In this document: in pieces, positions 4,767-59,335 of the stretch | Layout of the letters: every line of letters starts with the position of its first letter | How positions within the stretch are numbered: the first letter of the stretch is position 1 | Origin: Bacteroidaceae bacterium | GTDB lineage: Bacteria > Bacteroidota > Bacteroidia > Bacteroidales > Bacteroidaceae | Direction: 5' to 3' | DNA: 64,000 nucleotides | Assembly (NCBI GenBank): GCA_017428785.1 | Contig: JAFRQD010000054.1 | Span: forward strand, 1 to 64,000 | Made by a program: the position numbers and the translations under genes | The notes under the pieces: generated by a model | What the model was told of the DNA's origin: nothing | The model's database searches: none | The model's input: only the letters and a program-made list of their open reading frames with translations

Positions 4767-6287
4767 TTATGCAGGCATATCGGGCAGAACATAGCCGTTC
4801 TGGTACTTCGGCTTGATGAGTTCTGCTGCGAATTCGCGAGCGTTGACGGGTTCTGTGTAGGTCTTGTTGAATGTGGGGTGTCCATCGTGGATGGAGAAGC
4901 CGTCCTTCAACATTGCGCGAACGGTGGCCTTCTCGGGGATGTTGGTGAAGCGCATGTTCTCGCCGTCCCATTCCAGAGTCTGGTTCAGGCCCTGCAGACG
5001 TGTGGCGACAACGCCCATTGCAACCATTTCGTTGAAGGGACCTGCCTCGCTGAAGTCAGATGCTGTCCTTGTCCAGTCGGTCTTGCCTGCGCGGATTTCC
5101 TTGATGGCACGGATCCAGTCGCGCTGGTGGCTCTCGGTCACGCGGCGGCAAACCTTCGGTGCATTGGGCACGCGGCCGCTTACGAGGTAAGGCTTCTCAC
5201 CGTAGCAGCCTACGACGAGGATGTCCTTCGTTCCGTAGAAGATGGCGCCGCCACCGCTTACGTTGAGGTCCTTGCCTACGGGCAGGCCATCGGGACGGAA
5301 GGGAACGATACCGCCGTCGCTCCAAGTAACCACAACCTCAGGCATTGCTACCTTCGGACGGTTGGGACGAGCGGGATAAGTCAGCTTAACGACCTGAGCG
5401 CTTGGGCAGCAGTCGGACATAAGAGGAGTGGAGCTGCCTTCAGCCTTGATGGGATAGCCGAGGTCGAGAGCCTTGAAGACGGGATGCAGGATGTGGCAAG
5501 CCATGTCGCCGAGGGCGCCTGTGCCGAAGTCCCACCATCCGCGGAAGTTCCAGGGGTGATAGATGGAGTTGTAGGGGCGCTTGGGAGCCGGGCCGATGAA
5601 GGCATCCCAGTTCAGAGTGCTGGGAATCTCGTGTACCTCTTCGGGGCGCTCGAGGCCTTGTGGCCAGATGGGACGGTCTGTGAAGGCATCCACGCGAGTC
5701 ACCTCACCGATTTCGCCGTTCCATATCCATTCGCAAGTCAGGTTCACGCCTTCGCCGCTTGAACCCTGGTTGCCCATCTGAGTGGCAACGCCGGCTTTTG
5801 CAGCGAGCTTGGTGAGCAGACGAGATTCGTAAACGGTACGGGTCAGAGGCTTTTCGCAGTAAACATGCTTGCCTGCTGCCAGAGCTTCTGCGCAGATGAT
5901 TGCGTGTGTGTGGTCGGCTGTACCGCAGATAACAGCGTCTGCCTTGTCCAGCAACTCGGCATACATCGTCTTGTAGTCGTGATACATCTTGCAGTTGGGG
6001 AACAACTTCTGATATTCATCGAGCACGCCTTTAGCATACTTCCAGTCAACATCGGCTATGCCGATGAACTCGATATCGTCATATACTTCGCCTTTGCCTT
6101 TGTAAGTAACGCCGTTGATGTCAGCATGGCCACGACCGCCGACACCTACGCCGAGGAGTTTGATTTTGCCTGTCTGTACGGGTTTCTTTGCTTTAGCTTT
6201 GCCGAGTACATCGACGGGAGCCATAGCGAGAGCAGCGGTAGCTGCGGTTCCTGCCCTGAGGAACGATCTTCTTGACATGTCTTTCAT
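4767..6287 (-). CDS. Tat-exported Gfo/Idh/MocA-family oxidoreductase
   Basis: 506 residues. The N-terminus carries a twin-arginine signal (SRRSFLRAG at residues 5-13, then an Ala-rich h-region), so the enzyme is exported folded with its dinucleotide cofactor. A Rossmann fingerprint (GVGVGGRGH) follows at about residue 46, and the family motif CEKPL is near residue 144. The C-terminal half is the usual alpha/beta substrate domain. It probably oxidises the C3 hydroxyl of a glycoside for the DUF1080 enzyme encoded 20 bases downstream. An alternative ATG three codons in (MSRRSF) is equally good. The gene is flanked by tatA and, three genes on, tatC. Confidence 0.92.
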   Translation of the reverse strand: MKDMSRRSFLRAGTAATAALAMAPVDVLGKAKAKKPVQTGKIKLLGVGVGGRGHADINGVTYKGKGEVYDDIEFIGIADVDWKYAKGVLDEYQKLFPNCKMYHDYKTMYAELLDKADAVICGTADHTHAIICAEALAAGKHVYCEKPLTRTVYESRLLTKLAAKAGVATQMGNQGSSGEGVNLTCEWIWNGEIGEVTRVDAFTDRPIWPQGLERPEEVHEIPSTLNWDAFIGPAPKRPYNSIYHPWNFRGWWDFGTGALGDMACHILHPVFKALDLGYPIKAEGSSTPLMSDCCPSAQVVKLTYPARPNRPKVAMPEVVVTWSDGGIVPFRPDGLPVGKDLNVSGGGAIFYGTKDILVVGCYGEKPYLVSGRVPNAPKVCRRVTESHQRDWIRAIKEIRAGKTDWTRTASDFSEAGPFNEMVAMGVVATRLQGLNQTLEWDGENMRFTNIPEKATVRAMLKDGFSIHDGHPTFNKTYTEPVNAREFAAELIKPKYQNGYVLPDMPA

Positions 6288-6366
6288 AAAAGATGTTTTG
6301 ATTTAGATGGGTTAAACTTATGTTATTTGTTTTGTGTTTCTTTGATGCTTAGCACAAGGCGCGCTG

Positions 6367-6576
6367 TTATGGGCGCGGAACTTCCTTCTTTTCAGGCTCG
6401 GCATTGATTTCCTGTTCAATGTCGTTCATGCCTTTCTTGAACTGCGAGACGCCTTTGCCGAGGCCGCGCATGAGTTCGGGAATCTTCTTGCCTCCGAAGA
6501 GGAGCAGGATAACGAGGGCGATGATGATGATTTCCTGGCTGCCCAGAGAGCCGAGGAATAAGAGTTGATGTGTCAT
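6367..6576 (-). CDS. tatA: Twin-arginine translocase subunit TatA/TatE
   Basis: 69 residues with the standard TatA plan. A short periplasmic N-terminus leads to one membrane helix (EIIIIALVILLLFGGKKIPE), the FGGKKIPEL hinge motif, an amphipathic helix (MRGLGKGVSQFKKGMNDIE) and a charged tail. It oligomerises to form the pore recruited by TatC. The cargo gene begins 79 bases downstream, and tatC closes the cluster. Confidence 0.95.
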   Translation of the reverse strand: MTHQLLFLGSLGSQEIIIIALVILLLFGGKKIPELMRGLGKGVSQFKKGMNDIEQEINAEPEKKEVPRP

Positions 6577-6584
6577 GTTATGTG

Positions 6585-6622
6585 AGTTTAAAGTTTGGAG
6601 TTTAGAGTTTAGAGTTTAGAGT
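6585..6622. repeat. Heptanucleotide GAGTTTA tract
   Basis: AT-rich low-complexity sequence with 7-base period (GAGTTTAAAGTTTGGAGTTT, then GAGTTTA three times). It fills the spacer between tatA and the oxidoreductase gene. Confidence 0.75.
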
Positions 6623-6624
6623 GA

Positions 6625-7701
6625 TTATTTGTGCGGTCTGTCGATGAGTCCGTAGCCGTCGGTGGCATGGGCTCTGCGGTAGTGAATCTGTTCCAGTTCT
6701 TCGGGCGTGCCTTTCGATGGGAGGTCGTTGTGGCGGGCGTCATCGAGCATCTTCCATGCGTACTCGCTGGCGATGGCTGCATCGCGGAAGCGGGGTAGGG
6801 AGACCGGGCGTTTGCCGGTGAGGATTGCCTCGCCCATCAGCTTGCATAGACGGTCTATGTTCTTGTCGCCGTAGGGTTGCTCCAGTCGCTCTGTGACATG
6901 CTCGCCGTGCATCTCCACAACAGCCGTCTTGAAGTCGTGCGTCATGCGGACAAAGCCTTTGCTGCCGATGAGTTCGGTATAGGAGTTGTGTGTCTGGTCG
7001 AGTGCCAGCTGCCCATAGACGAAGCCCTGGGTGATGTCGTAGACGATGCCGTTCTCGAAGGTGCCATGGCATTGCAGCCACCACGGGTCTTTGTAGTCCC
7101 ACATGCGGATGGCCTGGGCGTGTCCCGTCTTATATTCCGAGTCGGCATACCAGCGGGCGATGTCCACATAGTGCATTCCGCAATCGTGGAAGGACGGGCC
7201 TTCGAACTCGTGCCCTTCGCCCGGAGAGAGGCCTGGCGTCATGTGGCAGATGCGGATGATGGCCAGTTCGCCTATCTCGCCACTTTTCACGAAGTCCTTC
7301 ATGGCTTGCGTGTACCAGGCATTTCGGAGGTAGAGGTTGACGGTGCAGAACTTGTCGGTCGATTCTTCGAGCTTCACCACATCCCATTCCTCGTTGAGCT
7401 TATAGGCGAGGGGTTTTTCGCAGATGACGTGCTTGCCGGCTTTGACAGCCTTCTCTATGCGGCTTGCGCGGGTGTCTGCCAATGCAAAAAGACCGACGCA
7501 CTCCACTTCGGGGTCGTCCCAGAGGTCTCGTTCGTCGGTTGTGAAGATGGCATCGGGTGCTATCTCATGTGAGTGCTTTGCCTTATCGGGGTTGATGTCG
7601 CAGGTGTATTTCACATCCCAGTACTCCGAGGCTACAAGTTCCTTGAGGTGCTTGCGTCCCATCCTGCCGAGTCCTATGATGCCTATTTTAATCCTGTTCA
7701 T
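6625..7701 (-). CDS. Cytosolic Gfo/Idh/MocA-family oxidoreductase
   Basis: 358 residues with no export signal. The Rossmann motif GIIGLGRMGRKH sits at residues 8-19 and CEKPLAYK at about residue 94. The C-terminal substrate domain carries HDCGMHYVDIARW (the His-containing helix common in this family). It is the first gene of the Tat/keto-sugar cluster. A plausible role is a second redox step inside the cell, either reducing an imported keto-sugar or oxidising a free sugar. Substrate cannot be read from the sequence. The minus-strand box TAACTTTA near 7758-7765 may be its promoter. Confidence 0.85.
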   Translation of the reverse strand: MNRIKIGIIGLGRMGRKHLKELVASEYWDVKYTCDINPDKAKHSHEIAPDAIFTTDERDLWDDPEVECVGLFALADTRASRIEKAVKAGKHVICEKPLAYKLNEEWDVVKLEESTDKFCTVNLYLRNAWYTQAMKDFVKSGEIGELAIIRICHMTPGLSPGEGHEFEGPSFHDCGMHYVDIARWYADSEYKTGHAQAIRMWDYKDPWWLQCHGTFENGIVYDITQGFVYGQLALDQTHNSYTELIGSKGFVRMTHDFKTAVVEMHGEHVTERLEQPYGDKNIDRLCKLMGEAILTGKRPVSLPRFRDAAIASEYAWKMLDDARHNDLPSKGTPEELEQIHYRRAHATDGYGLIDRPHK

Positions 7702-7837
7702 CGTTTCTTTTGCCTATTTTTGCCTCCTGATAGGCCATATTGCACATTTTCGTGTGTAAAGTTACGAATTATTCTTTACTCTGGCAAGGAATGCCTCTTG
7801 TTTTTAACCTTTTTTTACAGTACGGAAGCCTGTGACG

Positions 7838-7873
7838 CAAAAAAGGCCCACCATGCGCGTAGCACGATGGGCC
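7838..7873 (-). terminator. Terminator downstream of the TPR gene
   Basis: On the minus strand a 12-bp stem with G-U pairs (GGCCCATCGTGC with GCATGGTGGGCC, 7845-7873) is followed by a T-run (plus A-run 7839-7844). It lies 46 bases beyond the stop of the TPR-protein gene. Confidence 0.8.
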
Positions 7874-7918
7874 TTATGTAGCTTTGTTTTGTCTGGACTG
7901 TCATGCAGTCCGACGGCA

Positions 7919-9328
7919 CTATTTCTTTCCGCCGCTCCAGAAATCTTCCTCAGCCTTCTGGCGCTTCAGGTAGTCGTCGTAAGCCTTGCGGGCGGCAGCG
8001 TTTGCAGCCTGGCTGGCCTGGGCCTTCGAGATGCTTTCCTTCAGACGGTTGGCAGAGCCGCTGACTGTGATGTCGGCAGAGGCTGCCTTTCCGCAGTAGG
8101 CTGTGGCCTCGCTATACTGACCGAGGAGGGCGTAGATGTTGGCCATCTTGAGGTATGACTTGCCCGTCAGGTCGGCATTGTAGGCGATAGCCTTCTCGGC
8201 ATAGGTCAGGGCACCGGTGTACTGCTTGCTCTTTGTCAGGCCGTTGCAGATGTTGAGGCATATCTTGCCGCGGTTGGCGTCGCTCGAAGCGAGTTCCAGA
8301 GCCTTGTTGTAGTACTCCAGCATCTTGTCGAGCTGGCCGTCCTTCTGAGCCTTCTGTGCCAGACCGATGGCGCTGGTATAGGTGGGCTCGAGGGCGTAAG
8401 CAGCCTCGGCATACTGATAGTAGATGTCGCTCTCGTCGCAGTCGTTGTTCTGCATGATGGTCAGGCTGGAGTTGAGCTTGTTGATGTCCGTCTTATATCC
8501 ATCGAACTTCTTGGTGTAGATAGAGATGAGCTGTGCGCTGTCGGCAGCCCCGCTCTGTGAGAAGATCTGTTCGATGGCAGCCAGAGGAGCGTCGTAGGTT
8601 GCCACGAGCTGCTGGGCCTTGATGGTGTCGCCAGCCTCCTGCGCCTCCTTAGCCAGCTGGAGCATCTTCTCGCAGGCGTCCTTGCTGTCCAGGTAGTCCT
8701 GCAGATACTGTTCGCGCATGGTGTTGGGCATTGCCTTATAGACTGCGTCGCTCACCAGGAAGAAAGTCTGGAGGAAGGAGCCTGTGATTTCGCGGCCGCC
8801 CTGCTCGTTGACCATCTTGATGGCCTCGGCGAAGTTCTTGTACGAGCCACGAAGGTCGAAATTCTGCCCGAGGACAAGTGGAGCCGTCCAGTTGTAGTAC
8901 TCAGCCTTCACGCTCAGCACATCGCCCAGCGTACTCTTTGTCTTGGCGAAGGAGTTCAGGGCGTCGAGGTTCTTCTGGCGAAGCTCGAAGAGCTCCATCA
9001 TCTCGTCGAAGTACCTGCGCTTCTTGACGGGGTCCTGTTCTGCATTGATGAGGTTGTAGAACATGAACGGGCCTTGCGTATAGATACCGTTGACTGCGAA
9101 GGGTGCATACTTCTTCAGCCACTGGTAGTTGACATACATATCCTTCCAGTCCTTGTTGGCACCAGTCTGCTGGAACATCGTGATGTATCCTTTTGCGGTC
9201 TTGATGGTGTCTTCGGCGTTGCCGGTGGAGTGCGCGATGCGTTCTTCAACGGTGCTGCCTTCGAAATTCTGTGCCATTGCATTTGCCCCGATGAGCGCGA
9301 GCAACATGGCGAGAGTGAGTTTCTTCAT
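7919..9328 (-). CDS. Periplasmic tetratricopeptide-repeat protein
   Basis: 469 residues from the ATG at 9326-9328, chosen because it opens a signal peptide (MKKLTLAMLLALIGANAMAQ). A longer frame from 9409 has no signal. The body is alpha-helical with TPR-like repeats in the C-terminal half (for example AYALEPTYTSAIGLAQKAQK, then YNKALELASSDANRGKICLN and ALTYAEKAIAYNADLTGKSY). It ends in a charged tail (DDYLKRQKAEEDFWSGGKK). This resembles scaffold or complex-assembly proteins conserved in Bacteroidales. Function is unknown. It has its own promoter and terminator. Confidence 0.85.
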   Translation of the reverse strand: MKKLTLAMLLALIGANAMAQNFEGSTVEERIAHSTGNAEDTIKTAKGYITMFQQTGANKDWKDMYVNYQWLKKYAPFAVNGIYTQGPFMFYNLINAEQDPVKKRRYFDEMMELFELRQKNLDALNSFAKTKSTLGDVLSVKAEYYNWTAPLVLGQNFDLRGSYKNFAEAIKMVNEQGGREITGSFLQTFFLVSDAVYKAMPNTMREQYLQDYLDSKDACEKMLQLAKEAQEAGDTIKAQQLVATYDAPLAAIEQIFSQSGAADSAQLISIYTKKFDGYKTDINKLNSSLTIMQNNDCDESDIYYQYAEAAYALEPTYTSAIGLAQKAQKDGQLDKMLEYYNKALELASSDANRGKICLNICNGLTKSKQYTGALTYAEKAIAYNADLTGKSYLKMANIYALLGQYSEATAYCGKAASADITVSGSANRLKESISKAQASQAANAAARKAYDDYLKRQKAEEDFWSGGKK

Positions 9329-9379
9329 TTTTCTACTTATATTAAATAGTTCAACTTCCTGTTGTTTTCTTTTCAGCTG

Positions 9380-9410
9380 CAAAGGTAAGAAGAAAATGTA
9401 GAACTGCAAA
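9380..9410 (-). promoter_or_regulatory. Promoter of the TPR gene
   Basis: On the minus strand TACCTTTG (9387-9380) is a perfect TAnnTTTG box. TTTG (9410-9407) lies 19 bases upstream. The box is about 50 bases before the ATG. Confidence 0.75.
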
Positions 9411-9938
9411 AAGAAAGTGTCTTAACGAAACTTAAAAAGCGAATAATTGAACAATATAAGTCCTATATGGGTTCTTTTTGTTCCGTTTTGAAGGGAGAAA
9501 ATGGGTTTTTCTTGTCAAAAGGAAAGGCACGGGCACCCGAAAGTCCTCAGCCGGAAATGGGAGGAGACAGATATGACTGAAAGTGGTGCGCAAAAAAACT
9601 TTACATTTTTGGCGACAAAACGGGGCAGGTTTTCTGTCGCCTTGTGCCGCCCTTGCAAACGCAGGCAGCGGAATCGGCAAACGCCGCCTGCGGAATTGCC
9701 CATCGCCGCACGCGGAAATTGCAAACGCCGCTGCCTGCGTTTTGCGCTTTCGCATGTGGCTGTTTTTGAGGCCCTTGCAAAGGCGTAAAAATTGCGCTTC
9801 CCGTCTCGCTCATTGTCAAGAGCGTCAAAAGGCATTGCAGGGAATGGCGTGTTTTATCTTCGACCGAAATCTTTACATTTTGTGGCATTCTTGCTGATGT
9901 CCGGAGGCGGGCAATTGTCTAAAAACTTGCCTTTTCCT
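9411..9938. other. Intergenic region between divergent genes
   Basis: About 530 bases without a supported gene. The middle holds a 22-bp-period palindrome array (9661-9748), and the right end a plus-strand promoter. Short open frames here are by-products of the repeat. Confidence 0.7.
9661..9748. repeat. Palindrome array A, 22-bp period
   Basis: Four units start at 9661, 9683, 9705 and 9727, exactly 22 bases apart. Each begins with an 11-bp GC-rich near-palindrome (GCAGGCAGCGG, GCCGCCTGCGG, GCCGCACGCGG, GCCGCTGCCTG) followed by a looser AT-richer half (AATTGCCCATC type). This is one of seven such arrays in the window. Confidence 0.85.
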
Positions 9939-9969
9939 TTTGTCATGTCCAATCTTTTTCGTATATTTG
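9939..9969 (+). promoter_or_regulatory. Promoter of the Ca/Na exchanger gene
   Basis: TTTG at 9939-9942 and TATATTTG at 9962-9969 are separated by 19 bases, the standard Bacteroidota spacing. The leader to the ATG at 9986 is only about 10 bases. Confidence 0.75.
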
Positions 9970-9985
9970 CAGCGCATTATTATAT

Positions 9986-10963
9986 ATGGTACTCGAAATT
10001 ATCTTAATCATTGTGGGTATTGCGGTGGTGCTTTGGGGCGCCGACCGCTTTACTGACGGGGCTTGCAGTTTGGCCAGGATGCTGAATGTGAGCGAGCTTG
10101 TTATCGGTTTGACTATCGTTTCGCTCGGGACGAGTCTGCCGGAGTTTATCGTGAGCCTTATGAGCGTTTTGCGTCACAGCAGTGACATGAGCGTGGGAAA
10201 CATCCTGGGCAGCAACATCTTCAACATCCTTGTCATCATCGGCGCTTCGTCCGTCATGAGGACAATCAAGGTGAGGGACCTGCAGCTGCGCCAGCACTTC
10301 GCCACCTGCCTCCTCGTCTCCTGTGCGCTTTGGCTCTTCGCTTCCACGAATGGGACGATAGAGAGATGGGAAGGCTTCCTGCTCGCCGCGTTCTTCTGCG
10401 TCTATATCTACAAGACGTATAAGATTGCAGCGGACGACAAGAAGACAGCAGCCCAGGCCTCCGACACATCTCAATCTTCCTCTAAAGAAGAGAGCATGTG
10501 GAAGCCTATCGGCCTGATTGCCATCGGAATGGCGGCTCTGGTGATAGGGGGACGCGTATTGGTGGAGAATGCGGCTGCCTTTGCTCGCGAGATAGGCATC
10601 AGCGAGAGCGTCATCGGCATGACGATTCTGGCTGGCGGCACGAGTCTCCCCGAACTCGCAACAAGCGTCATCGCCGCTCGAAAAGGGAGCTACGGCCTGT
10701 CGCTGGGCAATGCCATCGGCAGCAATATCTTCAATGTGGCCTTCGTGATAGGCGCTTGCGCCACTATCCTCCCGATGCCCGTCACAGAGATAACGCTGGT
10801 GGACTGGTATGTGTTCGTGGGCAGCGTAGTGCTCACGTGGTTTGTGGCAAGCACAGGTCACAAACTCGAAAAGAAGGAAGGCGTCCTGCTCCTTATGGTC
10901 TATCTGGCCTACCTTATCTGGATTCTGTTTAATCCTCAAATAATTAAAATGTTGAACATATAA
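9986..10963 (+). CDS. Calcium/sodium antiporter (CaCA family, YrbG-like)
   Basis: 325 residues and about ten membrane segments in two homologous halves. Each half carries the alpha-repeat signature: GTSLPEFIVSLMSVLRH with SVGNILGSNIFNIL (about residues 49-85), and GGTSLPELATSVIAARKG with SLGNAIGSNIFNVAF (about residues 217-255). The acidic E in each SLPE is the ion ligand. It exchanges Na+ for Ca2+ across the inner membrane. A basic/polar loop (ADDKKTAAQASDTSQSSSKE) joins the halves. It precedes the M60 gene by 16 bases, though the two functions are not obviously linked. Confidence 0.92.
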   Translation: MVLEIILIIVGIAVVLWGADRFTDGACSLARMLNVSELVIGLTIVSLGTSLPEFIVSLMSVLRHSSDMSVGNILGSNIFNILVIIGASSVMRTIKVRDLQLRQHFATCLLVSCALWLFASTNGTIERWEGFLLAAFFCVYIYKTYKIAADDKKTAAQASDTSQSSSKEESMWKPIGLIAIGMAALVIGGRVLVENAAAFAREIGISESVIGMTILAGGTSLPELATSVIAARKGSYGLSLGNAIGSNIFNVAFVIGACATILPMPVTEITLVDWYVFVGSVVLTWFVASTGHKLEKKEGVLLLMVYLAYLIWILFNPQIIKMLNI

Positions 10964-10979
10964 CTAAAACTAACATGAT

Positions 10980-13900
10980 ATGAAAAGACTATTATCTATT
11001 ATCTGGTGTCTGATGTCCCTCGGTTTGGCATGGGCACAGACGAGTGATTTCTCGGGAAAGATTATCAATGTGGGAAATGCAGCCACGGAGCTTCAGACAG
11101 GCAAGTGGTATGTCCTCTACAATGATTTTAGCAAGGCTTATACGCTGGAAGGGGCAGACAACACGCTGGGCGTCTCTACAACCTCTCCCAGCGGAGCAGA
11201 TGCGCAGGCAAATGCCGGCTATCTCGTGCAATTGGAAGAAACGGGAACCTCAGGCCGTTATTATCTGAAGTCGGGCCTCGGCAACTACTATTGTAATGTC
11301 ATGGCGAGCAGGAACAACGGCACAAGCGCTGAGGTGCAGACCAAGTACTTCTTCGCCATAAACCAATTCAGCACGGCGGGGCATTGGTCGCTCCGCAGCA
11401 ACGGACAGTATTATTTGCAGAACAACGGCGGCAAGCTGTGCGGCGGCTCGAGCAGAGGCAGTGAAGGCGGCGACCGCGACTGGGCTTTCCTTGAAGTCTC
11501 CATCACCGACCTCGGCAGCCTCACAGGCAAAGACTACGTCAGCTTTGTGCTCGGCAAAAAAAACCTCGTCCGCCTCACAAACCGCCGCAGCACCAATTCG
11601 CGCCTCGCCGACAACGGCACAAGCACTGTGGGAGCAGCCAAGAATAACAACACACTGGCTCAGGTGTGGCTCCTCGATAAGTCGGGTAGCGGCTATACCC
11701 TTCGCAACGCCAACACGGGACGCTTCCTCAACGACGACGACAACTTCCGCAGCCCTTCTGCAACTGCTGCGAGAATCTTCATCCAGTTCAGCCCCAACAA
11801 CTCCGGAAGCCAGGCTTACATCAACCTCTCAGAGAAGGAAGACTTCTCGGGAAATGTCTGCCTGAACCTCAACGGCGACGGCACAACACTCTACAAGTGG
11901 ACTTGCCAGAACGACCAAGGCTCGGACTGGAGCATCGCACTTGCTGAGAACTTCACCATAGAGGAAGTGGAAGCTCACCTGCTTGAGCAGAGCGGACTCT
12001 ATGAGCCTCAGGAAGGAAAGTACTACCGCATCAAGAACATGGGCAAGTCCAATTATATCAACGAGGACATTGGGGCAAATGTCCTCACCTGCGAAAGCAA
12101 GGACGAGACAAAGCTCTCGCAGTACTGGACTCTCGTGAAGACCTCCGATGGCCGCTACAACGTCCAGAACCTCTGCACACAGCGGAACATTGTCCAAAAG
12201 AATGGCTCACTCAGCTCGCAATACACCACGAACTTTGGCAAGACAAACACATTCTCCATCCAAAGGACGAATGATGTAACAAACCTCACTTACTACATCC
12301 TCGACACCAGCAGCGTCGGCCTGCATTGCGACGCAAGCAATACAGTTGTGGGCTGGTACAGCAATGCCACCAACAGCGTCTGGGGCTTCGAGGAAGTGCA
12401 GCTGGACGAAGCCTTCATCGAGGAAGGTCGCGCAAGGCTCAATGCCTTTACTGATCTTCAGCGGCACGCCAACACCTACAAGGCTGCCCTCGCCAACCTC
12501 TTCCAGGATAAGGCATGCACCGAGCTCAAGGACGAGATACAAGCCCTCAGCGATGAGGCTTTGGCAGAGAACGCTGACTTCATCGCTCTCAATGACGACA
12601 TGAAGGCAATGGTGCTCAAGGTGAAGAACAATACTTGGGAAAGCTTCACATCCTCCACAGGCTATACGAGAGAAGGTTTCGAGAAGTTCTTCCGTGTTCG
12701 CGACGACTACAATGTGTACAGCCACTACCAGAAGATGACATGGAACGAGTATGCAGGCATGAGCAACTCCTTCGGCAAACTGTCAGGCCCGACAGGCATC
12801 GTCGGTAAGGCAGGCGACATCATCTACATCTATGTGGACAAGGAACCAAGCACCGACTGCACTTTGCAGGCAGAGATTGTGATGGATAGCGACAGTCCCG
12901 GCGACCATCAGACCGGCTCGACCACCACTCTGCATGCTGGCCTCAATACGATCTTGATAAGCACGCCCAGCACCGTTTACATCTTCTACCAGCTCAATGA
13001 TCCGGAGAAGTACCTTGCCAATTATCCCGCTGCCAAGATACATATCGAGGGCGGCGAGCTGCAAGGCTACTTCGACTACACGCGCGGCATGACCAATCAG
13101 GACTGGACGCTTCTTTACGAGAAGCTGCTCAAAGAGAGCAAGGTCATCAACCTTAAGTGCGACCGCGTTGTCTTTGCCATGCTTGCCAGCCTTGTGAAGA
13201 GCGCCATCGGCAAGACGGGCGAGGCTGAGGGCTTGATGCGCATCTGGAACAACTTCATAGAGTGTGAGGAGAACCTGATGGGCTTCAAGGAAGACCTCGC
13301 AGGAAGGTTCCGCAACGTCTGGAATGCTTTCTCGATTAACTACAACTACATGTTTGCCACGACATACGGCACCTACTATGAAAACAGCACCCTCTCTACG
13401 GTGATGAACTATAATGCGCTTACTTCGAGCGGCGGCGCCATCTGGGGACCGTCGCACGAGATTGGCCACAACCATCAGTCGTGCATCAACATCGTGGGTG
13501 CGACAGAGGTTAGCAACAACCTCTTCTCCAATGTCAACGTCTTCCTGCATGGCATTTCCACAACGCGAGGCTCGACGGTGACTAAGACGCTTGAGCATTT
13601 CGCAAATGGCACGGGGTGGTTCGGAATGGGCATTTGGGAACAGACCCGCATGTACTTCCAGCTCTACCTTTACTTCCATGCGCAGGGGCACAAGCCGGAC
13701 TTCTATCCCACGCTCTTCAAGATGCTTCGCAAAGACCCCATTCGGAAGCGGACAGGCCCATCCAGTTCATCGCTTGTCGATGGTGACGGCAACATTGTGT
13801 CGGGCGTCATCACTTACGGCAAGGACGACTATCTGCACTTGGCCAAGAAGATGTGCGACGCCGCTCAGCTCGACCTCAGCGAGTTCTTCGAGGTGAATGG

Positions 13901-15155: not shown

Positions 15156-15174
15156 GCAGGCGAGGCTTGAAAAC

Positions 15175-15262
15175 GCCGGCTGCGGCGATTGCCAACGCCG
15201 CACGCGGAAATGCCCAACGCCGCACGCGGGGATTGCCATCGCCGCACGCGGCGTTTGGAAGG
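15175..15262. repeat. Palindrome array B, 22-bp period
   Basis: Units start at 15175, 15197, 15219 and 15241. Three of the four share GCCGCACGCGG, and the first has GCCGGCTGCGG. The array sits between the M60 stop and the next gene, where it could also form alternative stems in RNA. Confidence 0.88.
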
Positions 15263-15307
15263 CCCTAAGGCCATGATGGTAAATATACTGTAAACCTCAG
15301 AAAATGA

Positions 15308-35688: not shown

Positions 35689-35767
35689 TAATTATATAAT
35701 CATTTACATTTTCAGGGGACAAAATTACAAAAAAGTGAGCAAAAAGCCAAATTTATTGAAAATTTCG

Positions 35768-35775
35768 TACCTTTG
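35768..35775 (+). promoter_or_regulatory. Candidate -7 element upstream of the DUF3667 remnant
   Basis: TACCTTTG matches TAnnTTTG and lies 27 bases before the ATG at 35803. The -33 element is weak. It suggests that the truncated gene is still transcribed toward the inserted element. Confidence 0.45.
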
Positions 35776-35802
35776 CAGTCGGTTTCATTACAAAACAAAC
35801 CC

Positions 35803-36105
35803 ATGATTAGTTTGAAAGGAAAGTGGCAACAGTTCTGCCGGTGGCAGCGTAATCCGATACAATATAAGCCTTTGACAGACGAAAAGCATGTCTGCCTGAA
35901 CTGCGGACAGGAGTTCAAGGGCGATTATTGCCCTCGCTGTTCTCAATCGAAGAATGTTGAGAAGAAGATAAGTTGGAGCACTATCAGCAGCGGCTTCTTG
36001 GAGGCCTTCAATATTGAGGGGCGCTCTTTTCCCCGTGCACTTTGGCATCTGATCTGTCGTCCGGGCTACATGATAGGCGACTATATCAGCGGGCATCGCC
36101 GATAA
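35803..36105 (+). pseudogene. DUF3667 membrane-protein gene truncated by the 36-41 kb element
   Basis: The 100 residues that remain hold the N-terminal zinc-ribbon-like motif (CLNCGQEFKGDYCPRCSQ) and the conserved segment RSFPRALWHLICRPGYMIGDYISGHRR (in parts) that normally precedes several transmembrane helices. The frame then meets the element's inverted repeat and stops (TAA at 36103-36105). The family is usually well over 200 residues, so the membrane part is lost. The missing 3' portion is not found at the other end of the element. Confidence 0.85.
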
Positions 36106-36190
36106 AAGGAAAGCCCCCACGGGCGAAAATTTGGGGGCTTTCTCAAAAAAGGGATGCTTTCTGTCTTTTCCAACAATGTTGAAAATGTTT
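36091..36190. repeat. Left terminal inverted repeat
   Basis: 100 bases. From outside in: GGGCATCGC, CGATAAAAGG, a terminator-like hairpin (36110-36141), GGGATGCTTTCTGTCTTTTC, and the inner motif CAACAATGTTGAAAATG. It pairs with 41286-41383. It differs by C/A at 36099 and two extra A residues near 36150. Confidence 0.92.
36110..36141. terminator. Hairpin terminator inside the left terminal repeat
   Basis: The stem AAAGCCCCCA (36110-36119)/TGGGGGCTTT (36132-36141) has a 12-base loop, with U-rich flanks in both directions. It would stop transcription leaving or entering the element. A copy in the right repeat is at 41333-41364. Confidence 0.75.
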
Positions 36191-36200
36191 CTTTGTTGAA

Positions 36201-36329
36201 TCAGCTCAATGTAGGCACGGGAAAGGGACCGTGCCCCATGCAGCTCGTCGTAGTGATGGCGGTGAGGGCTGCCGTGATGGCTGCCACCAGCATCTTGAGT
36301 AGCACCTCCCAGATGTTCTTGCTTTTCAT
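36201..36329 (-). CDS. 42-residue single-span peptide (smalltalk-type)
   Basis: MKSKNIWEVLLKMLVAAITA followed by more hydrophobic residues, then TTTSCMGHGPFPVPT. One membrane helix is followed by a possible lipobox-like SC. It matches the tiny proteins annotated smalltalk in Bacteroidales, which always sit just downstream of an HU-like and a murein-hydrolase gene. The start overlaps the hydrolase stop as ATGA. The stop is 11 bases from the left terminal repeat. A holin- or spanin-like role is conceivable but unproven. Confidence 0.75.
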   Translation of the reverse strand: MKSKNIWEVLLKMLVAAITAALTAITTTSCMGHGPFPVPTLS

Positions 36330-36742
36330 AATTTTTCGTTTTTGATTTTTTCGTAGAGCGCATAGCCGTCGGCGATTACTCCTGCTGGCAGCAGCGCCCC
36401 GCATTCTATCATGGCCATTGCCCTGACGAGATTTGGCCAGTCTCTTTCGCTCAGCCTTTCTTTTCCGCCGTAGCCTGTGAGCCTGCAAACACCGTTGATG
36501 TATTCGGCGGTATTGTTTTCTGTGCTTGGTGCCCATCTTCCGATAATAGCCTCTATGCATGTAGCGTCGTATTTTCTGCGGTACGTCTGTAGGATGGCAA
36601 AGGCGGCTCTGATGCCCCAATCGAGCGATGCGAACTGCACGAACTTCGGGTCGTTCTGCTCTACGGTCTGCCCCTTCCAGACGGTGCCAACAACCCGCCG
36701 AATGTTCAGCGGGTTGTTATTGCGGAGTCCACGCGGGTTCAT
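36326..36742 (-). CDS. Phage-type murein hydrolase
   Basis: 138 residues from an ATG that overlaps the HU-like stop by one base (TAATG). It begins MNPRGLRNNNPLNIRRVV, the RGxRNNNPxNI signature of small phage lysozyme/virion-associated murein hydrolases, then WGIRAAFAILQTY and NGVCRLTGYG. There is no signal peptide, so access to murein would need a membrane partner, possibly the 42-residue peptide encoded next. The neighbouring genes fit a phage-derived cassette. Confidence 0.78.
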   Translation of the reverse strand: MNPRGLRNNNPLNIRRVVGTVWKGQTVEQNDPKFVQFASLDWGIRAAFAILQTYRRKYDATCIEAIIGRWAPSTENNTAEYINGVCRLTGYGGKERLSERDWPNLVRAMAMIECGALLPAGVIADGYALYEKIKNEKL

Positions 36743-37203
36743 TATTCGAGGCCGTGGATGGTGTCGGTGTTCCTGATCACTTCGACGGCATCGGCCTGTG
36801 CAGCGCGGCTGGGTACGAGCTGGAAGGTGGCTTCGTCGCGGAGGTTCTTGAAGCGCTTGCTGGGCGTCCAGCGGACGTTCACTGCCTTGATGTTGTCGGC
36901 GCTGAAATCGTCGGTGGTGACGGCTCCCTCGCAAGCGAGTTCCACATGGAAGTTGCCCATGTCGCCGAGTTGCACGGAATTGCCTGCCAACATCTGCTCG
37001 CGGAGGCACGCCACGGCGTCGGTGAGGATGCCCTTGATGGTGCCCTTCGAGAAGGGTGAGTTGTGGTCGGCGATGTGCTTGCAGAAATCGTCGAACGAGA
37101 GTTTCTCGTGAATCTGCGCCGTGCCGTAGGCCTTGGTCTGGGTGATATTCTCTTTCTTCGTGCCGGGCTTCGTGCCCATAATGCAAATACTGTAGTTAAT
37201 CAT
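36742..37203 (-). CDS. HU-like DNA-binding protein of the element
   Basis: 153 residues, longer than canonical HU (about 90). It begins MINYSICIMGTKPGTKKEN, with central HIADHNSPFSKGTIKGILTDAVACLREQ and VQLGDMGNFHVELAC, and carries the HU beta-arm region (NVRWTPSKRFKNL). It belongs to the HU-related proteins that accompany a murein hydrolase and a smalltalk peptide in Bacteroidales. It could bend DNA at the central repeat region or at the ends. A minus-strand TATCTTTG box at 37328-37321 is a candidate promoter. Confidence 0.82.
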   Translation of the reverse strand: MINYSICIMGTKPGTKKENITQTKAYGTAQIHEKLSFDDFCKHIADHNSPFSKGTIKGILTDAVACLREQMLAGNSVQLGDMGNFHVELACEGAVTTDDFSADNIKAVNVRWTPSKRFKNLRDEATFQLVPSRAAQADAVEVIRNTDTIHGLE

Positions 37204-37360
37204 GGTCTTAGATTTTTAAGGTTCATTTCTCAGGTGTAATTGTCCGACTATTGCTGTTAACTTGTCGAACTTCACTCGTGAAATTGCGCACTTTCGCGTG
37301 CGAAGTTTTCAATCACGCTGCAAAGATACGAAGAAAAGGGGCGAAAAGAAAATACAAGTT

Positions 37361-37405
37361 CCCTGCATTTTCCATGCAGATGGAAAATGCAGGGAAAATG
37401 CAGGG
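37361..37405. repeat. 15-bp palindrome plus direct repeat (CCCTGCATTTTCC family)
   Basis: CCCTGCATTTTCCAT (37361-37375) and ATGGAAAATGCAGGG (37380-37394) form a perfect 15-bp stem with a 4-base loop. A further AAAATGCAGGG follows at 37395-37405. A 28-bp stretch (37377-37404) is repeated inverted at 38165-38192. Confidence 0.88.
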
Positions 37406-37410
37406 AAAAA

Positions 37411-37755
37411 TCAAAAGTGGCGCTTTATGCCGTCGATGTCGCTGCGGTAGTTTTCGGAGCGGCTGAGGTAATAGTCGTAGTTCGAGCGGAGGCCGATTTC
37501 GGGAAACTCGCTTTTCAATGCTCCGTAGGTGGGTTTTCTGAGCACGCCTGCCTCGATGGCTGCGATGATGGTCAGGGCGCAGACTTTCGGGCGCATGCCG
37601 TCTATCATGCTGTGCAGGCGGGCGAGCAGGGCGTCTGCCTGACTTTGGTCGATGAAGAATTCCTGAAAAGAAGAGGGCGGCCGCTTAGGCTGCTGCTCTG
37701 CGGCTGCTGGGCGTTCCCTGATGCGCAATGTGAGGCCTGCGCCCTCGATGTTCAC
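37411..37755 (-). CDS. Unknown element protein (114 aa)
   Basis: I do not recognise this protein. It is soluble. Its N-terminal third is Pro/Ala/Gln rich, and the C-terminal part is helical (QADALLARLHSMIDGMRPKV, CALTIIAAIEAGVLRKPTYG, then YDYYLSRSENYRSD). It starts within the stop of the 37752 gene (ATGA overlap). The pair is bracketed by inverted copies of the CCTGCATTTTCC repeat. Its position resembles small accessory proteins near HU/VirE-N modules in Bacteroidales. Confidence 0.65.
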   Translation of the reverse strand: MNIEGAGLTLRIRERPAAAEQQPKRPPSSFQEFFIDQSQADALLARLHSMIDGMRPKVCALTIIAAIEAGVLRKPTYGALKSEFPEIGLRSNYDYYLSRSENYRSDIDGIKRHF

Positions 37756-37988
37756 GATAAAGCATCCCTCTCGCTGGGGGGGGGTAACTCGATGTCAATC
37801 AGCGAGTTATACTCGGCTTTTATTTTCATAAGTATGTCGTTTGTGAGTAAATCCCATTCTTCGAGTGCTTCGATGGGCGAGCAGAACTTTGCACGCGCGA
37901 ACATATATTCTTTCAGGAAGCCGTGCTGGCGGGCATGCTCCCTGCACAGCCTTGCGATGCGCCTTTTTCGCCTGAACCACTCAAACAT
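37752..37988 (-). CDS. Unknown small basic/acidic element protein (78 aa)
   Basis: I cannot assign a family. The N-terminus is strongly basic (FEWFRRKRRIARLCREHARQ), a potential nucleic-acid-binding helix, and the C-terminus acidic. A minus-strand TAATTTTG box (38000-37993) lies 5 bases before the ATG, implying a leaderless or nearly leaderless message. It is the first gene of the leftward operon. Confidence 0.6.
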   Translation of the reverse strand: MFEWFRRKRRIARLCREHARQHGFLKEYMFARAKFCSPIEALEEWDLLTNDILMKIKAEYNSLIDIELPPPSERDALS

Positions 37989-38310
37989 GCCGCAAAATTA
38001 CGAAACTTTCAACAAATCAACAAGAAAAACATTGTTTTTTTTCGGGAAAGGTTTCGCTATTTTACTATATATAAATTATTCATGATTCGATAATTATATA
38101 ATATACAGCGGCTTATGTGACATTTTCAACAATGTTTCCGTTGTTGGATAGTTGAACATTCTTTCCTGCATTTTCCCTGCATTTTCCATCTGTCGTGATT
38201 TTGCAGGGAACATTTTTTTTCGCCGCTCGTCTTATCTTCTTACCTTTGCAGCGATGAAAGTCGACAATCATCAATCAACCTAAGGTTTAACATCAAAAAA
38301 TTTCAACATT
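37989..38310. other. Origin-like central intergenic region of the element
   Basis: 322 bases between divergent operons, AT-rich on the left (TATATATAAATTATTCATGA area 38065-38105). It holds TGTTGAAAATGT on the minus strand (38131-38120), the same 12-mer found at the inner end of both terminal repeats. It also holds the 28-bp CCTGCATTTTCC inverted repeat copy (38165-38192), another TTTCAACATT (38301-38310) and a plus-strand TACCTTTG box (38241-38248). AT-rich DNA plus repeats beside an SSB-like/helicase-like operon suggests a replication origin. This is inference. Confidence 0.55.
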
Positions 38311-38589
38311 ATGTTTTTGGAAAAAATCAAAATCGTAACCGTCGGGGACGTGAAGAGCGGCGTCTCCACCACCACGGGCAAGCCCTGGGCAACCCGCAAC
38401 ATTCTGCTCGGCTTCGAAGACGAGACCGGCGAGAGCTACTTGAGCGTCGCCGTTGACAGCGACGTTTGGCAGCGCCTCGGCTATGCGCAGGGCGACATTG
38501 CAAATCTGCATATCCGCTTCCGAACCAGGCGCTTCAACAACGGCTTTCTTGCCAACGACCTCCGTATTGTTTCACCCGAAAACCAGTAG
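38311..38589 (+). CDS. DUF3127/SSB-like OB-fold protein of the element
   Basis: 92 residues. The pattern KIVTVGDVKSG, TGKPWATRNILLGF, then a long gap to NNGFLANDLRIVSP parallels the chromosomal DUF3127 protein at 49314-49709 (TGNEWKAKSYVLEV ... NGRWFNDVRAFRI), including the Gly-x-x-Trp and the NG/ND positions. These are OB-fold, SSB-like proteins. It lacks the Pro/Ala acidic tail of the chromosomal protein. It probably coats single-stranded DNA during replication or transfer of the element. Confidence 0.7.
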   Translation: MFLEKIKIVTVGDVKSGVSTTTGKPWATRNILLGFEDETGESYLSVAVDSDVWQRLGYAQGDIANLHIRFRTRRFNNGFLANDLRIVSPENQ

Positions 38590-38593
38590 AGCC

Positions 38594-38932
38594 ATGAATG
38601 TACATCTAAAAGGCGTGAACCTTTCGGTCACATCGAAGACCAACAGCATGCCGACGAGCAAGCCTGTGGCTGGGCGCTTCCGTATGTCGCCCGACTGGGA
38701 AAACGCTTCGTTCGTCGAGGAAGATGCAACCGTCATCTATGGCGACCCGAAGGCGAAGTGCCTCAAGCGCGGCCGCTTGTGCTCGGTTTGGTGGCATCCC
38801 GAGAAGAAACAGTACAAAATCTCCCTCCGCATCGTCCCGGCTGAAAGTCCGCAGATGCCGGAATGGGCGTTTGAAGATTGCATGAACTTTATCAGAAGGA
38901 GGATAAAGAATGGAACCGACAAAGCCCTATAG
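38594..38932 (+). CDS. Unknown element protein (112 aa)
   Basis: I do not recognise a family. The protein is beta-rich (ATVIYGDPKAKCLKRGRLCS, VWWHPEKKQYKISLRIVPAE) with a helical, basic C-terminus (EDCMNFIRRRIKNGT). It starts 4 bases after the SSB-like gene and overlaps the VirE-N start by 23 bases, so it belongs to the replication-like operon. Confidence 0.65.
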   Translation: MNVHLKGVNLSVTSKTNSMPTSKPVAGRFRMSPDWENASFVEEDATVIYGDPKAKCLKRGRLCSVWWHPEKKQYKISLRIVPAESPQMPEWAFEDCMNFIRRRIKNGTDKAL

Positions 38933-39551
38933 CCCTTGCGACTATGTGAACAAGGCTCGCGACAATCGGCCCAAGCCGCTGACCCGCGAATATTTCGCCA
39001 CGCTGCTCGAGGACATGAACGTGCGCTTTCTCTGCGAGAAGGTCAGGGAGCACAAGCCCGATGCCGAGCGCTACAAGATCATGCTGCCCGCCATCACATG
39101 GCAGAGCTACTTCGACGGCAAGTTGCGCACCGACGCGAACGCCAGCCCGACGGGGCTCTTCTGCCTCGACGTGGATATCCACCATGAAGAGAACTTCAAG
39201 AGCATCCTGAAGATGTCGGGAGCGGAAACCGCCATGAAGTGGGCTGAAATCGAAGCCCGGGACCGTGCCTGCCGATGGGCGGCCATGCAGGTGGAGCAGG
39301 ACCAGACGGGATGCAACCCCGTCGACGACCTCGCCATCCTCGGCATCCACATCTCGCCAAGCGGCATGGGCGTGCATGTCATCGCATGCTGCAACGAATT
39401 CTGCAAGAGCATCGAGGAGAATCAAGCCCGCCTTGCGCGGCTGCTCGGCACCAGCTACGATGCCGTGTGCAAGGACTGGGCGCGCATCTTCTTCATGACG
39501 CCGAAGGAGGATTGGACATACCTGGACATTAAATCATTATTCCCAGAATGA
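38910..39551 (+). CDS. VirE N-terminal-domain (BT4734-like) protein
   Basis: 213 residues. LPAITWQSYFDGKLRTDANA and TGLFCLDVDIHHEENFK (acidic cluster DVD) match the BT4734-like/VirE-N family, which is related to primase-type nucleotidyl-transfer folds. HISPSGMGVHVIACC follows. In most relatives this domain is fused or adjacent to DUF3987, exactly as here (4-base ATGA overlap). The likely role is initiation or priming of element replication. That function is inferred. Confidence 0.78.
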   Translation: MEPTKPYSPCDYVNKARDNRPKPLTREYFATLLEDMNVRFLCEKVREHKPDAERYKIMLPAITWQSYFDGKLRTDANASPTGLFCLDVDIHHEENFKSILKMSGAETAMKWAEIEARDRACRWAAMQVEQDQTGCNPVDDLAILGIHISPSGMGVHVIACCNEFCKSIEENQARLARLLGTSYDAVCKDWARIFFMTPKEDWTYLDIKSLFPE

Positions 39552-41287
39552 AAAAGAAGAAATTAATCGACAAGCAGGAGGCGGCGCAAGGCGTCGCCTC
39601 CATTCTCCCCACGAAAGGGGACGGAGCGTCATTCCCCGACAACTACAACGGCATCCCCTATGCCGTCATCGTCAACGCCCTGCTTTCTGCATTCGGCTTC
39701 AAGGACGGCCATGTGCCCGAGGGCGCAAGAAACACGACGCTCTATCGGCTGGCAAGGCAGCTCCGATACATCTGCGACTTCAATCCTGCCTACATTCGGA
39801 GCGTCGTGCCCGATTGGGGGCTGGGCGAGGAAGAAATCAGGCAGACCATCTCGTCGGCCATCACGAGCACGCGAATGGCAAACATGCCCTTCGAGCTGAG
39901 GCAGGCCATCGACGGCATCACAAAGCCCGACCTCTCCACGACCGCCAAGCGGCAGGAATACCTCCAGCGGCTCAACCCGCTGCCACGCAAGATGCCTTTC
40001 CTCCTGAGATATATCTTCAGAAGATACGGGCGCAACGGGCGCTCGGCTCTGGTGGCCGCCCTGCCCATGCTCGGCACTTTGCTGGGGCGCTTCGAGAGCA
40101 AATACCTCGACGGCCGCAGGCACCGACCCGTCTTCATGGTGGTGGTGGCTGGCCATGCAGGAAGCGGCAAGGGCTTTATTGCCGACATGCAGGAATGGCT
40201 CTTGAAGCCCATTCTCGCCGACGATGAGAAAGGCCGCGAACAGTTGGAGGAATATGCCCGCGAACGCGAGAAGAAGAAAGGCGCAAAGCAGCTGCCCGAC
40301 AAGCCCACACCCTGCATGCGCGTCCTTTCGGCCACCAGCTCGAACGGCATGCTGCTCGAAAGAGCCAAAGCCAGCCTCGGCCAGCCCATTTGCGTCATTT
40401 CAGAAGAAATCGACGAAGCCCTGAGAGCCAACAGGAACGGCGCATGGGCTGACAAGAGCGACATCTACCGAAAGGCTTTCGACGGAGCCAGCTGGGGACA
40501 GGACTACATGATTTATTCAGGGAACGTGCGCATCTACATGAACCTGCTCTTTGCAGGAACCTACGTGAGCGTCCGCAACTTCTTCACCAACGTGGAGAAT
40601 GGCCTCATGACGCGATTCTTCTTCACCGAAATGGCCCGCGACCTCGGCAAGAATGTGGAAATGCGCTGGGACGACGAGACAAAGGACGACCGCCATGCTG
40701 CCGAAATCGTGCAGAACCTCTACGAGCAGGGCTGCACCATCGACATCCCAGCACCCGAGAACATCATATCGTTCGGCCTTCCAAAAGCCAAGAACGAAGC
40801 CTAGCGCTTCAACGAAGAGAAGATTGCGGAATGGGAAGCCAGCGGCCCCGACGAAGACCACCGCGACAATGCCATCGACCTCTTGCGCCGGCGCGCTGCC
40901 GTGGTCATCTTCCGTGCGGCGCAAGTCATGTACGCGCTGGAAGGCAACAAAGAGACGGCCATCGGCAGCGAAATGGCAAAATGGTACGGAAACGAAAGCT
41001 TCCTCAACCAGTACATCATGTTCGCCGATGCCATCAACGAAAGCGCACGCGCCAACGATGCCATCCAACGCAAACAGGACATAGCCGCCAGCCGAGTGGC
41101 AAGAAGCAACGCCCTGTTCCGGCTGCTCGATGCCCTGCCCGATGAATTCTCGAAAGAGGACATTCAAAAGGTTCTTGCAGATAACAAGATGGCTGAAAAA
41201 GGATATTCAACCTACCTCAGGCGCATGGAAGCACGCGAGTTGATCATGCGGCAAGGCAAAGGCTGGAAGAAAATCTTCAACAATTAA
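39548..41287 (+). pseudogene. DUF3987 helicase-like gene with internal amber stop
   Basis: The reading frame is 579 codons long with one interruption, TAG at 40802-40804 (codon 419). Residues 1-418 include the Walker A motif AGHAGSGKGF (about 201-210) and a Walker-B-like CVISEEIDEAL. After the stop the same frame continues with RFNEEKIAEWEASGPDEDHR and ends at TAA 41285-41287 inside the right terminal repeat. A CAG-to-TAG change (Gln, one base) would explain it. The 418-residue product keeps the ATPase core but loses the C-terminal winged-helix-like part. It may be inactive or suppressed. Confidence 0.8.
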
Positions 41288-42627
41288 ACATTTTCAACAT
41301 TGTTGGAAAAGACAGAAAGCATCCCTTTTGAGAAAGCCCCCAAATTTTCGCCCGTGGGGGCTTTCCTTTTATCGTCGATGCCCATCGCCTTGTAAGCCAT
41401 CTCGGCAAATGGCATCACGACGCCCTTCGTGCCTTCGTACATTCCGATAACTGTACCCCAATAGGGACGCATCTGTGCACCAAGAGCTGGTTCCGTCATC
41501 AGCCAAGCACGGGAATCGGAATAGTAGTATCCGCTGGAGCCATAGTGGTAGTTCGTCCAAGGCAGTCCCTCCGTGCTCTGGGTCTGCGCTGCCACATATT
41601 CGATGCCAGCAGCCAGGCGGTGGTTCATGTATGCAAACAGGTCGTCGCCCTGATTGTAGGCAACTTTGGCAATGTCAACAGCCAACCCCAACGCCAACGA
41701 CGAGTGACCGGTGTCGCGCCCGCTTTCATTCATCTGACCCAATTGGCCATAGGCTCCAGTCTCCAGTTCGCTCTCTATGGCTGTTACAATAAGGTTCCCC
41801 CAAAACTCCGTCAGCCCGTCGTTGTGAATAGCCTTCACGGTTGTTCCGTCGGGACCCGTTGCATCATGCAATGTGGGCGGTTCTGTGTAGTTGCCCACCT
41901 GATCGTATTTAATAAAGGAAACTCCCTCGTTGTATATCTGAACATTGTCGCAAAGAATGCCGATTGACATTACGCACAAGACATTGCACAGTCCCCAGTT
42001 CGACCAGTAATGGCCAGGGGCTTGCCACCACTTCCCGCTGTTCTCCCAAGTCCCGTTTCTGCCTCGCAAGAAACCGATGGCTTTGGGATACCATAGTGTA
42101 AGCATCCATTGGCGGAACTGCTCGAATTCCTCTGCCTTCCATCCTTCGTAGTCGCGCATAAGTTCGGCTGCCTGCGCAAACTGATAACCATAAAGGCCAG
42201 CAGCCAGACACTGATCGCTGGTGCCGCTGATGGCAGTCGTCTTGTTGCACCACGCCATGAGGATGCGGACTGCGGCCTTCGCATTGGCAGCCGTGCCGCC
42301 TATCTTCCAGCGCAATGCATTCTGATAAGCCATCGTAGCCCCACGAGCCGCATTGATGTAGTTTTCGCCAGAGCCACCACGCACAATGGTCTCGACGGGA
42401 GAAGTTTGCACAGAGCTTTGGGCATACTCGGCATTCCTCAGCTTGTTCCAGGCTTTCAAGATGGTCGAGTTCTTTGCAGCAATCTGCGCCTTTACCCTGT
42501 CGAAATCGGCCTGCGTGTGCAGCCCTCCGGGGTGAATGAAACCTCGGTCGGTGTTGATGGCCGTGGCTTGTGCGCCAGCCGTCATACTGACGAGCAACAG
42601 CGCGAGGGTAAGAAGTTTTGTTTTCAT
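41284..42627 (-). pseudogene. Alginate-lyase-family gene with 3' end replaced by the element repeat
   Basis: From the ATG at 42627 the protein has a signal peptide (MKTKLLTLALLLVSMTAGAQ) and an alpha/alpha-toroid alginate-lyase-like domain (FIHPGGLHTQADFDRVKAQI; WENSGKWWQAPGHYWSNWGL; ESGRDTGHSSLALGLAVDIA, with Asn, His and Tyr candidates). The native frame runs to about EMAYKAMGIDD. The last 25 or so residues (KRKAPTGENLGAFSKGMLSV and on) are translated terminal repeat. How many native residues are lost is unclear, and the catalytic domain looks nearly intact. It is 10 bases downstream of cysC. Confidence 0.75.
41286..41383. repeat. Right terminal inverted repeat
   Basis: 98 bases, the reverse complement of 36091-36190 with one substitution and a 2-base deletion. 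It overlaps the DUF3987 stop codon on its inner side and the 3' end of the alginate-lyase-like gene on its outer side. The hairpin copy is 41333-41364. Confidence 0.92.
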
Positions 42628-42637
42628 ATGTATTGTT

Positions 42638-59155: not shown

Positions 59156-59247
59156 GAAAGTCCGGGGCAGAGTTTTATGCGGACAGCAATAGTTTTTTAT
59201 TACGTTTGCAACGATGATTGGAATCGCCCCTAAGGGGGCTTCCAAAC

Positions 59248-59335
59248 GCCAGCTGCGGCGATTGCAATCCCCGCGTGCGGCGATGACCATTTCCGCGTGC
59301 GGCGTTGGCAATCCCCGCAGGCGGAATTTTTCGCT
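59248..59335. repeat. Palindrome array G, 22-bp period
   Basis: Units start at 59248, 59270, 59292 and 59314. The cores are GCCAGCTGCGG, CCCGCGTGCGG, TCCGCGTGCGG and CCCGCAGGCGG. It lies about 150 bases upstream of the next promoter. Confidence 0.85.

Follow-up and report, generated by a model that had tools for sequence, protein, structure and literature searches.

A proposed Bacteroidaceae chromosomal island whose iteron-bearing inverted ends are probably read by the winged helix of its own DUF3987 helicase

The DNA analysed here, called the window, is a stretch of 64,000 nucleotides from contig JAFRQD010000054.1 of a Bacteroidaceae bacterium (GCA_017428785.1). Between the genes cysD and cysC it holds a compact element in which long inverted repeats with short iterons enclose two operons, one of them encoding a predicted primase and a DUF3987 helicase. 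The families of the element's proteins were assigned by Pfam, NCBIfam and PHROG profile searches with ten protein queries, and the features of the element are the following.

36103 to 36200, plus strand: left terminal inverted repeat, hairpin and TGTTGAA-type iterons (repeat alignment, iteron count)
36110 to 36141, no strand: terminator-like hairpin at the left tip (read from the sequence)
36201 to 36329, minus strand: smalltalk peptide (DUF6486), 42 amino acids (profile searches)
36326 to 36742, minus strand: phage endolysin-like murein hydrolase, 138 amino acids (phrog_873, 1.3e-35)
36742 to 37203, minus strand: HU-HIG DNA-binding protein (Pfam, 1.8e-21)
37313 to 37411, minus strand: promoter/operator copy ahead of the HU gene (pairs in inverted orientation with 38158-38257; promoter by eye)
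37411 to 37755, minus strand: 114-amino-acid protein, no family match (Pfam, NCBIfam, PHROG)
37752 to 37988, minus strand: 78-amino-acid protein, no family match (Pfam, NCBIfam, PHROG)
38008 to 38160, no strand: central region in which iterons of the terminal type recur (repeat search, iteron count)
38158 to 38257, plus strand: promoter/operator copy upstream of the SSB-primase-helicase operon (inverted match; promoter by eye)
38311 to 38589, plus strand: DUF3127, SSB-like (8.7e-4, below the Pfam cut-off)
38594 to 38932, plus strand: 112-amino-acid protein, no family match (profile searches)
38910 to 39551, plus strand: BT4734-like_N (VirE_N) primase domain with AEP-type motifs (7.5e-6)
39548 to 41287, plus strand: DUF3987 helicase gene, broken by an in-frame TAG (PF13148, 2.4e-8)
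41108 to 41287, plus strand: C-terminal winged-helix segment, downstream of the stop in the window copy (fold from the intact relative L007)
41276 to 41371, minus strand: right terminal inverted repeat, hairpin at 41333-41364 (repeat alignment)

The arms 36091-36200 and 41276-41383 align in inverted orientation over 110 bp with 95.5% identity and are the best-scoring inverted pair in the window; as an earlier sequence-only reading had described, their first ~98 bases differ by one substitution and one 2-base indel. That reading placed the borders at 36091 and 41383. The repeats stand, and the borders move inward: the outer 12 bases of both arms, GGGCATCG[C/A]CGA, still belong to the coding sequences of the neighbouring genes, which leaves about 36103-41371 as the element proper. 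The two junctions share 11 of these 12 bases though the flanking genes are unrelated, a likeness that would fit a short target common to both or a repair event at microhomology. Of the TGTTGAA copies in the window, eight lie in the element, two at each end and four between 38008 and 38539 (the SSB-like gene contains one of these four); the remaining 58.7 kb have 16. The terminal repeat has no further match in its own assembly, and of 61 genomes searched it matches three: its own and two in which only fragments of about 40-46 bases align, at 80-83% identity. The exact repeat is thus found only here; it is the design of hairpin plus iterons that recurs in relatives, with other sequences. Within the element, segments 37313-37411 and 38158-38257 also match in inverted orientation (80% over 106 bp); these promoter-like copies, with GCAGGGAA operators, flank the gene pair for the 114- and 78-amino-acid proteins, and a matching pair lies at the same place in two related loci (L047, L052). 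A shared regulator is likely, perhaps one of these two proteins.

The gene content proposed from the sequence alone agrees with the profile searches in both operons, including the three genes without a family. The hydrolase has no Pfam or NCBIfam match; the 114- and 78-amino-acid proteins each have relatives in two of 58 other loci scanned, plus L217; and the 112-amino-acid protein is conserved in the subfamily, being present in ten loci. The DUF3127 assignment is clear in a relative, L081 (1.8e-20). In the VirE_N proteins the AEP motifs hhhDhD, sxH and hD/E, as defined in PMC5862659, can be read by eye as LDVD, GVH and RIFFMTPKED, the motif set by which the window protein is a predicted BT4734-like AEP primase, and DUF3987 has the P-loop GHAGSGKG. 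None of the 11 close relatives inspected has a stop at the position of the TAG (40802-40804); with its helicase gene broken in this way, the window copy is probably not autonomous as assembled. The ten queries matched no transposase, integrase or relaxase, and no capsid gene was found, the only head or tail matches being to large PHROGs that share the hydrolase region; the sequence-only reading had likewise seen none of these. AlpA had no match among the element proteins at E up to 0.1.

The surroundings of the element were compared with relatives, and the features concerned are these.

35689 to 42637, no strand: segment between cysD and cysC absent from relatives (relatives' cysC-cysD gaps)
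35812 to 36102, plus strand: 5' fragment of a DUF3667 gene, truncated at the left end (Pfam match, relatives)
41372 to 42636, minus strand: 5' fragment of an alginate lyase gene, truncated at the right end (comparison with relatives)

The 6.95-kb cysC-cysD gap of the window thus consists of a 5' gene fragment, the element and a second 5' gene fragment. The DUF3667 match ends at position 28 of the 45 of the Pfam profile, in a frame that reads to 36102. Alignments of the lyase with its relatives reach about 41372, the closest relatives among the matches listed have open frames of at least 624 amino acids, and the 91%-identical relative in L116 reads GGGCATCGACGA and then departs from the window. 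Both neighbouring genes are thus missing their 3' parts at the ends of the element. The region was compared with 61 genomes, its own among them; eleven stretches were picked from the matches listed, and the gap was read in the eight relatives in which cysC and cysD lay on one fetched stretch. Five of these (G005, G127, G035, G034, G111) are empty, with 27-123 bases between the aligned coding parts of the two genes. Of the others, G008 has a 742-amino-acid gene in the gap; G066 has the two genes adjacent and an element with restriction-modification cargo between cysC and an SLC13 gene; and G020 holds a different element in the gap, its HU 65% and its DUF3987 23% identical to those of the window, its VirE_N 33% identical over the last 81 residues, with TTAATG-headed iterons of its own after the helicase gene and matching arrays in its centre. 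A second case is L060, whose arms (6156-12718) lie within a 7.6-kb segment of G139; in the sister species G101 about 164 bp separate the counterparts of its two neighbouring genes (84-85% identical DNA). The comparison of occupied and empty sites that the sequence-only reading had proposed therefore finds the element absent from relatives at the same place. A local duplication was considered and rejected, since the cysC-cysD gap is empty in five of the eight relatives read and the design recurs with other repeat sequences. A chimera would account for two unrelated truncated genes meeting the unit at junctions that agree in 11 of 12 bases, GGGCATCG[C/A]CGA, and the source of the window is indeed a draft assembly, 84% complete and in 71 contigs; with the same architecture in other assemblies and the surrounding sulfate genes ordered as in relatives, we regard such an artefact as extremely improbable.

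DUF3987 relatives occur in 96 of the 139 genomes of the genus searched, and the first 58 places taken for comparison are the upper part of that list. The sequence-only reading had described this gene set as a recurring Bacteroidales neighbourhood without an assigned purpose: it recurs, and the literature searched gave no role for it. Long, near-perfect arms with unrelated sequences are also found at L047 (108 bp, 98%), L074 (189 bp, 95%), L060 (three blocks of 42-75 bp), L052 (48-51 bp) and L100 (156 bp, 88%). Each arm has three or four short iterons on its inner side and often a terminator-like hairpin on its outer side, and in several loci the terminal iterons are repeated centrally. In the branch with a fused VirE_N-DUF3987 gene the array is often TTAATG-headed and occurs in inverted pairs, each pair enclosing an operon; adjacent units are separated by about 100-140 bp. 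Two controls address the specificity of this arrangement. When the 150 bases at the 3' end of DUF3987 served as query, 24 of 70 DUF3987 loci contained a second, inverted match scoring 37 bits or more, versus 17 of 278 ends of other open reading frames of at least 200 amino acids. A longer 3'-end query, searched against the upstream part only, matched that of its own locus in 24 of 56 cases and that of another locus in 4 of 280 trials (p 2e-17), and the inverted-array match is therefore element-specific. In a genome of another family, all five copies that share a contig (L153-L157) were without a matching inverted array.

These findings also bear on the view that the locus is resident and non-mobile, its iterons serving as operators and terminators for operons under common regulation, with gene conversion keeping them similar. 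The central iterons and the promoter-like pair do sit at divergent promoters, the arrays lie at operon ends beside terminator-like hairpins, and a site beside a PFOR gene is common to L093, L095 and L097. Against it stand the contrast of occupied and empty places at two loci, the presence of different elements at one site, the truncation of both flanking genes and the several DUF3987 copies in many genomes, which together render it improbable.

Several further features of the related loci were recorded. Iterons lie within the coding linker of the fused gene in L075, L087, L166, L167, L168 and L170, and in L167, L168, L170 and L087 they also follow the gene. The VirE_N and DUF3987 halves appear to have been exchanged between elements in the genus. 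In L188 (102-339 and 4570-4661) the iteron-bearing repeat has been amplified close to one end of the DUF3987 unit, where it forms a 66-bp tandem array, and inverted copies follow the gene. An AAA_14/DUF4143 gene present in L100 (4931-6098) is absent at the matching site of L074 (5332-5341), the alignment blocks overlapping by 10 bases, as if the gene had been inserted. L093 and L095 have the same two flanks in two species, with the VirE-DUF3987 gene in opposite orientation.

What is new here is a covariation, read by eye, between the iterons and the winged helix at the C-terminus of the DUF3987 helicase. Because of this covariation, the winged helix probably reads the ends of its own element. 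Many binding sites at both ends with an internal copy are known from Mu-type transposons and from the inverted terminal repeats of adeno-associated virus type, the latter with a Rep-like enzyme; in the window element no DDE transposase or HUH nuclease was recognised. Terminal inverted repeats are likewise shared with DNA transposons and insertion sequences, from which the element differs in that none of its proteins, three small ones of them without any family, matched a transposase. A transposon of known type, its transposase supplied in trans by a helper element, would agree with the multi-site terminal repeats, the central array and the HU protein, which recall the layout of Mu ends and enhancer. 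The assembly has no other copy of the repeat, the iterons vary with the helicase of their own element, and no helper with the same repeat was found in the 61 genomes searched, only the short fragments in two others; this explanation is highly improbable. The profile searches, in matching no relaxase or integrase, also set the element apart from integrative and conjugative or mobilizable elements.

Some of the related units carry cargo. A scan of 20 proteins from ten loci found restriction or Fic genes between the iteron arrays in three: a type I methyltransferase and specificity subunit in L075, a type IIG enzyme (834 bits) with a Fic/Bro-N candidate defence protein in L092, and Fic with a type II methyltransferase in L078. 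The Pfam, NCBIfam and PHROG searches recognised no defence cargo in the window element. Such cargo, and the endolysin-like hydrolase, would also suit a phage satellite that leaves the cell by lysis with its own hydrolase and smalltalk peptide, is packaged by a helper phage and is moved by the recombinase of that phage. The passages covered on the PICMI satellites of Vibrionaceae describe units of about 6 kb, some with restriction systems, for which DUF3987 is among the defining primase models and an integrase, AlpA and a site at fis are required (PMC10803314). The window element shares the DUF3987/DUF5906 primase criterion (PF13148, 2.4e-8) and a similar size, and differs in that no tyrosine or serine integrase, AlpA or fis site was found in it. 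No capsid or packaging gene was recognised in it. Of two viral contig scans one gave no relative and the other a single distant one (25%), and a phage collection gave two distant matches; one is an integrated-type fragment, the other a scaffold fragment, and both lack the layout of the element and its ends. On these grounds a satellite is rather unlikely.

Two further systems offer partial parallels. The BT4734-like AEP primases of mobile elements share the primase motifs and the DUF3987 ATPase, a predicted helicase, and the passages covered mention no terminal iterons or borders (PMC5862659). The BrickBuilt miniature inverted-repeat transposable element of Porphyromonas gingivalis, also in Bacteroidales, joins tandem repeats to small inverted-repeat ends; it is a gene-free intergenic repeat with 19 copies and one 23-nt unit, with no link to a primase-helicase in the passages covered (PMC4596501). 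The literature searched mentions the genes of the window element and not this iteron-bounded architecture. Elsewhere in the window, a dispersed repeat of ~97 bp lies at 15170-15265 and 59235-59330 (89% identical, inverted, 44 kb apart), and a third, weaker copy at 9677-9742.

Judged from the ends, the iterons, the occupied and empty sites and the helix-iteron covariation, all read from sequence, we lean slightly towards a chromosomal island from a family that is mobile or once was, with a primase-helicase module and iterons bound by the winged helix of its own helicase. The VirE_N/DUF3987/HU/smalltalk neighbourhood was already known; its mobility is what we infer. The replication module would comprise the BT4734-like AEP primase, the DUF3987 helicase and the SSB-like and HU-like proteins, and the iterons at the ends and in the central control region would be bound by the C-terminal winged helix. 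Once the operons fire, the helicase would dock on the terminal and central iterons, HU would bend and synapse these sites, primase and helicase would copy the unit, and the copy would be inserted elsewhere by strand exchange or end-repair from the host or a helper. Entry and exit could rely on repair by the host, on the recombinase of a helper or on some activity of the small proteins that was not recognised. A more far-reaching version remains tentative and on the whole unlikely: a new class of integrase-less mobile Bacteroidales islands, in which a winged helix with a residue-to-base code finds the ends, the unit is copied and inserted by replication-linked repair, and changes in the code make elements independent. 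If this were true, several islands could share one genome and carry defence genes around.

A number of observations weigh against the island interpretation. The iteron labels used for the covariation were assigned by eye and unblinded, and rule-based labels gave weaker, mixed results: p 0.008 (anchored, n=13) and 0.50 (unanchored, n=15) for family 1; 0.007, 0.036, 0.105 (n=15) and 0.21 (n=7) for family 2; and 0.26 (n=8) for the family of the window. In sliding windows the top correlation, 0.64, falls in the helicase body (columns 761-840); at the winged helix the values are 0.58 in the last 80 columns and 0.03 at 881-960. As the iterons adjoin the 3' end of DUF3987, linked inheritance alone could tie them to its C-terminal half. 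No recombinase was recognised among the element proteins, and no clean target-site duplication could be defined at the window site or at L060, the flanks examined coming from two genes or being intergenic and diverged. At both places the stretch missing from relatives (6.95 and 7.6 kb) is longer than the repeat-bounded unit, 32 of the 56 loci are without matched arms, and the genus genomes compared, the window's own included, are draft assemblies. A Bacteroides block of BT4734, DUF3987, DUF4248, HU, smalltalk and amidase genes (NZ_OY725914.1) has the same core genes and adjoins polysaccharide genes; it differs in having an amidase instead of the lysozyme-like hydrolase, in carrying all core genes but DUF4248 on one strand, and in lacking a bracketing inverted repeat, so the borders are not universal for the neighbourhood. 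A circular or packaged form was not seen in the sequence collections searched; of the sequence-only reading, a discrete unit with defined ends stands, and satellite packaging or movement in trans is conjectural.

Because DUF3987 relatives are present in 96 of 139 genomes and restriction or Fic cargo in three of ten loci, these islands may move phage defence between gut bacteria. The pairing of helix and iterons gives the neighbourhood a testable biochemical function, recognition of its own ends, which would explain why the ends differ between elements yet match within one.

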